Positions 7,658-46,119 of a stretch of 64,000 bases of DNA are shown here, piece by piece. Below the pieces are notes generated by a model. That model made no database searches. It was not told the DNA's origin and saw only the letters and a list, made by a program, of their open reading frames with translations. The stretch's first letter is position 1, and each line of letters begins with the position of its first letter. The position numbers were made by a program, and so were the translations under genes. The stretch lies in NCBI RefSeq assembly GCF_900114655.1, contig NZ_FOTT01000009.1:1-64000 (forward strand), read 5' to 3'. The DNA comes from Candidatus Frackibacter sp. WG13 (lineage in GTDB: Bacteria; Bacillota; Halanaerobiia; Halobacteroidales; Acetohalobiaceae).

Positions 7658-7758
7658 TGGCGGGAATGTGTAGGAATCGAACCTACCGCGGACAGATCAA
7701 GTCTGGCCCGCCAGCGGATTTGAAGTCCGTGGTGCCCACCAGGGGCACAGCCATTCCC
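7658..7758 (-). tRNA. selC: tRNA-Sec (anticodon TCA)
   Basis: A 101-base tRNA with encoded CCA. The anticodon stem-loop GGACTTCAAATCC gives TCA, reading UGA. It has the features of tRNA-Sec: long acceptor branch, long variable arm (GGCGGGCCAGACTTGATCTGTCC region) and the selenocysteine-type D arm. It lies 78 bases after selB on the same strand. Confidence 0.97.
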
Positions 7759-44288: not shown

Positions 44289-45563
44289 TTATTTATAATT
44301 CAGCGCTTTATCCCCAATATCACTACGATAATGGACATCAGCAAAATCTATCTTTTCTACAGCTTGATAAGCTCTTTTAATTGTGTCTTTGTATCCCTTT
44401 CCTAAAGCTGTGACACCTAAAACCCTACCCCCAGCAGTTACTAATTTATTATCTTTATACTCAGTTCCAGCTTGGAAGACAACAGTATCCTTATTATCAT
44501 TTGCTTCATTGATTCCCTTAATTTCTTTACCAGTTTCATAATCTATTGGATATCCTCCTGAGGCCATAACTACACATACTGCTGTTTTGTCTGACCATTC
44601 TATATTGAATTCTGCTAATTCCTCTTCGATGATCGCTTCAGCTATTTCTACTAAATCAGTCTCTAAAAGTGGTAAGACAACCTGAGCCTCTGGATCTCCG
44701 AAACGCACGTTATACTCTAAGACTTTAGCTTCTCCATCTTCAATCATCAAGCCACTATATAAAATGCCTTTAAACTTAATCCCTTCCTCTTTTAACGCCT
44801 CAATAGTTGGAACTAATATCTCCTCGTATGCTTTATGTAAAATTTCATCAGTAGCTACTGGTGCTGGCGCATAAGCACCCATTCCTCCAGTATTTGGCCC
44901 TTCATCATTATCATAAACTTGTTTATGATCTTGGGATGGCAACATTGGGATAATTGTTTCTCCATCAGTAAAAGCTAACAAAGTTGCTTCTTCTCCGGTT
45001 AAGTATTCTTCAATAACTACTCGCTCTCCAGCTTCCCCAAACTTCTGATTAACCATAATAGTCTTTATAGCCTCAATTGCTTCCTCTTCGGTTTCAGCAA
45101 CAACTACCCCTTTCCCAGCTGCTAAACCTTCTGCTTTAACTACAATAGGCGCTCCTTCTTCTTTAACATAACCAATTGCTTCATCTTCATCAGTAAAAAC
45201 TTCATACTTAGCAGTGGGAATATTGTATTTTTTCATTAAATTCTTAGAAAAGACCTTACTACCTTCCAGCTGTGCAGCATCTTGATTAGGACCGAAGACC
45301 TTCAATCCAGCCTCTTCAAAAGAATCTACAATTCCAGCCACTAAAGGAGCCTCAGGACCAACAAATGTTAAATCAATCCCTTCTTTTTGAGCAAATTGGA
45401 GTAACTCTTCTAAATTAGTGTCTGATATATCTACATTTTCAGCAACTTCTGCTGTTCCTGCATTACCAGGTGCTACAAAAATTTCATCTACCTTTGTACT
45501 CTGACTTAATTTCCAGGCTAAAGTATCTTCACGACCACCACTGCCAATTACTAATACCTTCAT
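44289..45563 (-). CDS. purD: phosphoribosylamine-glycine ligase
   Basis: 424 residues, ATP-grasp. Joins glycine to phosphoribosylamine. Starts MKVLVIGSGGREDTLAWKL; AEGLAAGKGVVVA and NTGGMGAYAP are family motifs. First coding gene of the purine operon, about 260 bases downstream of the riboswitch terminator, with GGGGAGAGA as ribosome site. Confidence 0.97.
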   Translation of the reverse strand: MKVLVIGSGGREDTLAWKLSQSTKVDEIFVAPGNAGTAEVAENVDISDTNLEELLQFAQKEGIDLTFVGPEAPLVAGIVDSFEEAGLKVFGPNQDAAQLEGSKVFSKNLMKKYNIPTAKYEVFTDEDEAIGYVKEEGAPIVVKAEGLAAGKGVVVAETEEEAIEAIKTIMVNQKFGEAGERVVIEEYLTGEEATLLAFTDGETIIPMLPSQDHKQVYDNDEGPNTGGMGAYAPAPVATDEILHKAYEEILVPTIEALKEEGIKFKGILYSGLMIEDGEAKVLEYNVRFGDPEAQVVLPLLETDLVEIAEAIIEEELAEFNIEWSDKTAVCVVMASGGYPIDYETGKEIKGINEANDNKDTVVFQAGTEYKDNKLVTAGGRVLGVTALGKGYKDTIKRAYQAVEKIDFADVHYRSDIGDKALNYK

Positions 45564-45598
45564 TAAATCTCTCCCCTTAAACTTATTTATGATTAGAA

Positions 45599-45802
45599 CA
45601 CAAAAAGGTTATATTGAGCAAATCATAAATTTTTCGTTCACCATCTTGGTGAATAGGAGGTAAAAATGAGGCCGAACCACAGGAAGTGGTGAGCTAATCA
45701 CAGCACAGGACGTGCTATTGATTAGGAAGCCTTATTTTTACCGGATATGAACCTTAGATGGTTCGAAAAATTTATTCTATCGCGAAAGATGACCTTTTTG
45801 TG
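45599..45802 (+). ncRNA. 204-base multi-branched structured element, class unknown
   Basis: Nested pairings: 45599-45612 with 45789-45802 (14 bp); 45626-45636 with 45764-45774 (11 bp); 45659-45672 with 45729-45742 (14 bp). Branch hairpins: 45637-45653, 45676-45690 (loop AGGAA), 45694-45725 (loop AGGAC) and 45749-45764. The two non-Watson-Crick positions in the long stems (45610/45791 and 45668/45733) are G-U on the plus strand but A-C on the minus strand, so the plus strand is the better RNA. GGA also occurs at 45656, 45725 and 45743. It lies between the riboswitch terminator and purD. A mobile MITE-like element is the main alternative. Confidence 0.55.
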
Positions 45803-45825
45803 GTTAAACCATTTATTTAAAATAT

Positions 45826-45886
45826 AAAAAAACCCAGGCAGGCAGATTCCACTGTCAACTAAGAGCAGAACCTCCCCGCCTGGGCT
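45826..45886 (-). terminator. riboswitch-controlled terminator of the purine operon
   Basis: On the minus strand CCCAGGCGGG and GCCTGCCTGGG ends form a stem of about 17 pairs with one mismatch, followed by seven T. The 5' arm overlaps the last conserved strand of the PRPP aptamer (AAAAGCCCAGG), so ligand binding and termination exclude each other. Confidence 0.9.
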
Positions 45887-45963
45887 TTTATCCCTTCGGT
45901 GTCATCAACTGTACCGCTCGGACCAAACCATTGTCATCTAACAACGTGGAACCCTAGGTACAC
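45871..45963 (-). promoter_or_regulatory. PRPP riboswitch aptamer (ykkC subtype 2)
   Basis: Minus-strand conserved words in order: CCTAGGGTTCC, TTTGGTCCGAGCGGTACAG, GACACCGAAGGGATAAAAGCCC. These are the ykkC-class core. Placement just after a guanine aptamer and before purine synthesis genes indicates the PRPP subtype rather than guanidine or ppGpp. PRPP binding is expected to prevent termination and switch the operon on. Confidence 0.88.
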
Positions 45964-45966
45964 TTC

Positions 45967-46035
45967 CCCCATAGTCAGGTAGTTTACGGCCACCTGGTAG
46001 AAACTTGTGAGCCTTATTCTCACGATTATATGAGG
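45967..46035 (-). promoter_or_regulatory. guanine riboswitch aptamer
   Basis: Very close to the Bacillus xpt aptamer. P1 pairs CCTCATA with TATGGGG; P2 and P3 carry GTTTCTACC and CCGTAAAC. The specificity base is C in CTGACTATG, which selects guanine; adenine aptamers have T there. It is the first aptamer of the tandem. Confidence 0.95.
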
Positions 46036-46041
46036 TTATTA

Positions 46042-46119
46042 TTCGGATATAATTCTTCTACACGTTTATAATAACAAAAAAATCTTTTTTCGTCAATATA
46101 TATCTAGAATATATCCGAA
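46042..46119. promoter_or_regulatory. inverted PurBox-like motifs flanking the purine promoter
   Basis: TTCGGATATAATTC at 46042-46055 and its inverted match GAATATATCCGAA at 46107-46119. The second extends to ATATCCGAACTTT, which fits the Firmicute PurBox AWWWCCGAACWWT; the first fits with one change. Spacing is about 50 bases, not the 16-17 of Bacillus PurR, and they bracket the -35 and -10 boxes. Confidence 0.55.
46068..46096 (-). promoter_or_regulatory. sigma-A type promoter of the purine operon
   Basis: TTGACG (46091-46096), 17 bases, TATTAT (46068-46073) on the minus strand, placing the start near 46061, about 25 bases before the guanine aptamer. Confidence 0.85.

Follow-up and report, generated by a model that had tools for sequence, protein, structure and literature searches.

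The structured segment downstream of the purine riboswitches in the 64,000-nucleotide stretch of DNA analyzed here (the window, from Candidatus Frackibacter sp. WG13) was found to be part of a mobile palindrome whose interior resembles an RNA family in the clan of CsrB. Under the reading that we favor, and hold with about even confidence, this is a MITE-like element with an interior of the TwoAYGGAY or reverse Bacillaceae-1 type, carried on several backbones, and its dispersed copies serve as a diffuse CsrA sponge or as a CsrA site in a host transcript. A non-autonomous palindrome of 220 bp, with AT-rich target duplications of 6-7 bp, has inserted between the terminator and purD and brought with it a long outer stem around two hairpins with CsrB-type GGA loops. 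The AGGA strand of a copy would be transcribed, usually by read-through, and the paired GGA loops may bind a CsrA dimer; the copies would then jointly titrate CsrA or place its site on the host transcript. An earlier note on this DNA, made from the letters alone, had offered a MITE and a CsrA-sequestering RNA as alternatives. From the sequences, both are judged to hold, as a MITE with a CsrB-like interior for which CsrA binding is predicted.

The features of the locus are collected in Table 1. The segment at 45599-45802, previously described as a 204-base branched RNA-like element, folds far beyond chance on either strand, with -84.2 kcal/mol (z -11.75) for the plus strand and -75.9 kcal/mol (z -10.74) for the minus strand; 0 of 200 dinucleotide shuffles reached the native value in either case. 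The true unit is the somewhat longer element of Table 1 (fold z -10.3), which is non-coding and an imperfect palindrome from end to end, with inverted ends. The terminal inverted repeats contain ACAAAAAGG, and the 14-base core of the terminal repeat occurs 28 times in the genome versus 0 times in a reversed control. The minimum-energy fold is one long interrupted stem with two branch hairpins. Two of the four branch hairpins reported before are thus retained, and the remaining two are short palindromes, near 45640 and near 45760, that form pairs with one another within the long palindrome. The AGGAA and AGGAC pentaloops, each closed by CAC/GTG, were both located.

Table 1. Features of the purine leader and of the inserted element (window coordinates; a period denotes no strand)
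Feature	Coordinates	Strand	Basis
purD, host gene (not part of the element)	44289..45563	-	ORF; relatives at 70-79% identity
Left target duplication, 6 bp, ATTTAT	45585..45590	.	Direct repeat at both ends; other full copies of the type mostly have 6-8 bp
MITE-like palindromic element, 220 bp	45591..45810	+ (AGGA-loop strand)	Genome-wide copies, alignment, boundaries, target duplications, fold
Left terminal inverted repeat GATTAGAACACAAAAAGGTTATATTG	45591..45616	+	Nine-copy alignment; pattern search
Core module, 77 bases, two hairpins	45663..45739	+	Covariance model R1, 95 bits, E 2.8e-20; covariation
Hairpin 1, ACCAC-AGGAA-GTGGT, pentaloop 45681-45685	45676..45690	+	Fold; compensatory changes in 5/5 pairs across families
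Stem CTAATCA/TGATTAG bearing hairpin 2	45694..45725	+	Fold; 7/7 pairs covary
Hairpin 2, AGCAC-AGGAC-GTGCT, pentaloop 45707-45711	45702..45716	+	Fold; 4/5 pairs covary
Right terminal inverted repeat GGTTTAACCACAAAAAGGTCATCTTT	45785..45810	-	Nine-copy alignment; pattern search
Right target duplication ATTTAT	45811..45816	.	Direct repeat at element ends
ykkC-type aptamer (45875-45968) running into transcription terminator; upstream of insertion	45829..45968	-	RF00442, 57.1 bits (threshold 63); element-free leader in L254, L256
Guanine-type purine riboswitch, host leader	45952..46053	-	RF00167, 89 bits

The window genome contains 27 matches to the element, nine of which are near full length at 87-100% identity, together with deletion derivatives. 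The nine aligned copies share sharp common ends, and most of the other full copies are flanked by AT-rich target duplications of 6-8 bp; a few have none. Internal-deletion copies reduced to the two ends also exist, and L021 consists of terminal repeats only, with matching ATTAAT flanks. In two genomes of the same family (G002 and G003), the guanine riboswitch, the ykkC-type aptamer, and the terminator run straight into purD without the element, and thus the element most likely reached the window leader after those lineages split. The window genome was searched for an autonomous partner, and no pair of these terminal repeats was found around an open reading frame; plasmids contained no DNA similar to the element. 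The dispersed copies, target duplications, and empty sites in relatives demonstrate, as far as sequence can, a non-autonomous MITE-like palindrome, as one of the two earlier alternatives had it. Homologues at many loci with target duplications had been named as an outcome that would speak against the RNA reading. Such homologues are what we see, and the MITE holds; the interior is nonetheless CsrB-like.

Three copies in the window genome (L011, L012, and L023) and one in Halanaerobium MA284 (L049) carry an insert of 50-61 bp in one arm, with a short hairpin and a common motif (AGTGCTTGTA...). L011 has a second insert, similar to sequence near the G053 element L155, by which hairpin 1 is lengthened. 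Judging by these inserts in arms and hairpins, the elements appear to be modular.

The insertion site lies between the riboswitch terminator and purD. In this leader, the guanine riboswitch is followed directly by the ykkC-type aptamer, one terminator, and purD (45875-46053 region, minus strand), and the same layout is present in L254 and L256. It is the layout of the guanine-PRPP tandem riboswitch (PMC5912903); PRPP specificity is putative here. Of the promoter-like sites around the window copy, that of the purine operon itself (minus strand, 46096-46068) ranks best. The purine mRNA consequently carries the UCCU strand of the window copy, and with UCCU loops in that mRNA the window copy probably has no specific purine function. 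A consensus scan of the plus strand gave no promoter-like site between 45300 and 46000, nor any terminator-like site between 45300 and 46400. The 39 copies examined in genome G014 are all intergenic, with 14 oriented along both neighbors, 14 against both, and 11 mixed; an orientation bias toward host genes was considered and rejected on the equality of the two counts. The proposal of a plus-strand small RNA specific to this locus and antisense to the leader is not supported, given the lack of a plus-strand promoter in the scanned region and the random orientation to genes in G014. Nor is the element a feature of the purine leader as such, since the riboswitch-terminator-purD arrangement of G002 and G003 is identical without it. 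Elsewhere in the window, at 7662-7758 on the minus strand, there is a selenocysteine tRNA gene (RF01852, 68.4 bits), and thus the organism probably makes selenoproteins.

A covariance model (R1) was built from 21 cores. With this model, the 77-base core was detected in 16 of 59 Halanaerobiia genomes, and the covariance search that had been suggested therefore does yield homologues outside the locus. The cores number at least 81 in G014, 54 in G013, 19 in G044, and 11 in the window genome, and they ride on at least three unrelated mobile backbones. The element of G013 (Halanaerobium MA284) is 263 bp in length, has the ends CTGGACTTTCCCC and GGGGAAACTCCT, and is flanked by duplications of 8-12 bp in 23 of the 23 copies examined. 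The G014 element ends in CTGCAAAAAGC, the arms of the G016 element are unrelated, and G004 has a further version of the core with yet other arms. Mobility, a discrete module, and its spread over several backbones are evident from these genome comparisons.

Several observations concern the history of these elements. In L107 and L111 of Halanaerobium MA284, core-less sequences with GGGGAAACT-like ends are located near 263-bp elements, which suggests that the core joined a pre-existing small element. At one common site in Halanaerobium (L136, L160, L162, L239, and L248), the flanks are alike across species and the core and arms come from two subfamilies, a pattern that looks like the replacement of one element by another or a conversion between them. 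A separate dispersed repeat in G004 (L134, L138, L141, and L143) has a Bacillaceae-1-like core of 24-31 bits with different arms, mostly AGGAC loops, and longer stems. A tandem cluster in G014 with a spacing of about 2 kb was considered as a special array and set aside, as it was found to consist of rhs-type gene cassettes that had been duplicated together with the element. These cassettes (L132 and L133; G014:C1:1942500-1980000) comprise rhs/YD-repeat C-terminal sequences, repeated small genes, and element copies that are all in the same orientation, and an IS110-like transposase gene lies inside the array (L132 10617-12044).

Neither the window copy nor the rest of its genome matched TwoAYGGAY (RF01731) at the threshold of 43 bits. 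The two 6-base AYGGAY loops of this family are not those of the window copy (AGGAA and AGGAC); some sister families do have ANGGAN loops. A sister copy from G014 with a 6-base second loop scored 51.7 bits over the whole 168-position model, arms included, and the G053 copy L240 scored 43.0 bits, which is at the threshold. The minus strand of the window copy aligned across the whole Bacillaceae-1 model (RF01690, positions 1-67) with 24.1 bits, and eight copies of the window genome gave 24-29.4 bits on the reverse strand; the best value in the class was 31.3 bits, in G004, and all of these are below the threshold of 35. The minus-strand loops are GUCCU and UUCCU, both closed by C-G, and relative to the RF01690 consensus RUCCU the second loop has U for R. 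E. coli CsrB (RF00018) shares clan CL00106 with TwoAYGGAY, and the heptamer CAGGANG was counted 9 times in CsrB; the window loops are this heptamer, as CAGGAAG and CAGGACG, two per element. The scores of its sister copies place the module in a family of the CsrB clan. The earlier label of unassigned is only partly right, since sister copies reach the threshold of RF01731 and the reverse strand resembles RF01690 at scores below its cut-off. CsrA binding was proposed by Gardner and Eldai (RMfam) as a prediction for both TwoAYGGAY and the reverse complement of Bacillaceae-1 (PMC4333381). According to the same report, the discoverers of Bacillaceae-1 were unsure of its strand, validation was under way at the time, and CsrA-sequestering RNAs had until then been identified only in Gammaproteobacteria (PMC4333381). 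No account of RF01731 as a mobile repeat came to light in the literature examined.

In the 21-core alignment, compensatory changes were observed in 18 of 27 pairs, with a covariation of 0.404 versus 0.143 for shuffled cores, and sliding the partners destroyed the pairing. Among 59 distinct cores, whose alignment was made to the model and hence leans toward it, compensatory changes occur in 26 of 27 pairs and the covariation is 0.576 versus 0.173 shuffled, falling to 0.10 or below once the 3' partners are slid. Template switching can produce covariation in palindromic DNA stems, and RNA function is not required for this. In the Halanaerobium cores, the stem below hairpin 2 contains tandem G-A pairs. 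Across the 59 cores, both hairpin loops are for the most part C[AGGAN]G or C[ANGGAN]G, with loop letters that are constant while the stems get replaced, and in the cores that were read the two loops share a strand. About 90% of cores have AGGAN as the loop of hairpin 2. In hairpin 1, all 6-base loops are ANGGAN; in about one-third of the sample this hairpin has ACGAN or ATGAN without GGA, which argues against the CsrA reading because a strict CsrA site would not tolerate such loops. At least one GGA is kept in 54 of 56 modules and two are kept in 32 of 56. Shine-Dalgarno mimicry by the AGGA loops is not favored, since the loops leave their fifth base free and include ACGA.

Between species of Halanaerobium, four pairs of orthologous insertions were compared. 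Of 312 core sites, 7 differ (2.2%) versus 4-5% for the flanks within 60 bp and 8-12.5% at 61-200 bp (120/1120); these pairs were also gathered with the core model, and by our estimate a core that had diverged like the flanks would still far exceed the cut-off. Of the seven differences, four fall at variable loop positions and one at a junction base; the other two are an AGGA-to-ACGA change and a C-to-U change that leaves a G-U pair, and none of the seven breaks a stem pair. The copies within G014 gave another picture. In 76 copies, the core had seemed four times better conserved than the arms, and wobble pairs on the AGGA strand had prevailed by 43 to 15 on terminal branches. Both signals were gone in copies picked by the arm, and we have withdrawn them because the 76 copies had been picked largely by a model score that favors intact cores and G-U over A-C. 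Among copies selected solely by their 3' arm, the core pairs differed by 5.95% versus 3.9% for the paired part of the 5' arm, and parts of the core were deleted in 8 of 27 copies that retained the arm. Most individual copies thus drift and look like unselected debris, and conservation sits at the level of the source lineage. The earlier argument that G-U on one strand and A-C on the other marks a plus-strand RNA finds no general support, with counts of 12 versus 10 in 21 cores, 38 versus 22 in 58 model-aligned cores, and 20 versus 15 in the G014 copies picked without the core.

In the window genome, csrA lies between fliW and a flagellin gene, and the search for csrA that had been proposed was thus successful. 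Among the 59 Halanaerobiia genomes, csrA was found in 41, namely 15 of the 16 with cores versus 26 of the 43 others (Fisher p 0.023, an association that is confounded by kinship). G043 has cores, and csrA was not found in its fragmented assembly. The suggestion of a CsrA-sequestering RNA survives as a resemblance (the CAGGANG loops and, through a sister copy, the CsrB clan) in a genome that has csrA; its form as an independent antisense small RNA does not. We infer that the module functions as RNA, that it binds CsrA, and that its copies act as a sponge.

It may instead be that the element is purely a DNA parasite, whose double hairpin serves transposition or is a replication-corrected palindrome, with no RNA or CsrA function and a likeness to CsrB that is coincidental or inherited. 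We consider this unlikely, but by no means negligible. The neutral decay of the arm-picked copies, with core parts lost from 8 of 27 and the arm kept, is what a parasite would leave behind, as are the core-less derivatives, the wobble pairs without strand bias, and the randomly oriented, wholly intergenic copies of G014. However, the same core with the same loop polarity is found on backbones with other ends and other target-duplication lengths, and thus the core is not something that one transposase requires. The fixed loop letters on replaced stems, the retention of the core in orthologous Halanaerobium insertions, and the membership of sister copies in an RNA family of the CsrB clan likewise argue for more than a parasite. 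These same loops could belong to a structured RNA module for a protein or ligand other than CsrA, with A-N-G-A-N rather than GGA as the rule. Several families do share ACGAN and ATGAN loops in hairpin 1, and at times in hairpin 2 as well, and G043 combines cores with no detected csrA. At least one GGA loop in 54 of 56 modules, exact ANGGAN in all 6-base loops of hairpin 1, and csrA nearly throughout the class where the module occurs make this explanation rather improbable.

Two further readings are tied to the window locus, and both conflict with the distribution of the element. That an independent plus-strand small RNA is made here, antisense to the purD leader, would agree with the slightly better fold of the plus strand and with the GGA loops that it bears, but this idea is very improbable with no promoter-like or terminator-like site in the plus-strand regions scanned, with the insertion absent from the same leader in two relatives, and with the element being one of many dispersed copies. 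We give hardly any credence to a minus-strand cis element of the purine operon, such as a hairpin for mRNA stabilization or processing that would correspond to Bacillaceae-1 on its deposited strand. The element does sit in the transcribed leader 3' of the terminator, and its minus strand matches RF01690, at a score below the threshold; its position, however, is not conserved, and the related G014 copies adjoin unrelated genes in both orientations.

The CsrA reading can be extended to a more general proposal, which we advance tentatively as falling short of an even prospect: selfish palindromes of several unrelated lineages may have independently taken up a CsrB-like double-GGA hairpin and multiplied it to dozens of copies as mobile CsrA sponges. 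If this is true, then a scattered pool of transposon RNA, dependent on copy number, would tune CsrA activity in these Firmicutes-like bacteria, and TwoAYGGAY and Bacillaceae-1, both orphan families of Rfam, would be different views of a single mobile RNA module. The present comparisons link the two families predicted to bind CsrA to one module borne by transposable elements in a class of salt-loving bacteria that has a fliW-csrA system. The copies of the module offer concrete, multicopy, naturally mutated substrates for the prediction of CsrA binding. They also serve as a warning that, on covariation alone, a mobile element of palindromic form can be mistaken for an RNA gene.

Among known systems, TwoAYGGAY (RF01731, clan CL00106) has the same long multipart outer stem around two hairpins with GGA loops; its loops are of 6 bases (AYGGAY), whereas those of the window copy are of 5 (AGGAN). 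The reverse complement of Bacillaceae-1 has the same order of a hairpin, a short linker, and a stem with a second hairpin, and its loops, C-RUCCU-G on the deposited strand, would read C-AGGAY-G in the orientation of the element's plus strand; in contrast, scores are below the threshold throughout the class and the model is without the mobile long-arm palindrome. The CsrB/RsmB RNAs (RF00018) share with the element the CAGGANG hairpin loops and share their clan with TwoAYGGAY. They differ in that they have many sites and are each one regulated gene, whereas the element has two sites per copy on dispersed mobile copies, no promoter or terminator of its own was seen, and its CsrA binding is predicted by likeness. 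The element also resembles the palindromic bacterial MITEs, which are short and non-coding, with inverted ends, target duplications, many intergenic copies, and internal-deletion derivatives. The element described here differs from these in that no autonomous partner was found in the genome and in that its interior module is kept across backbones and genera.
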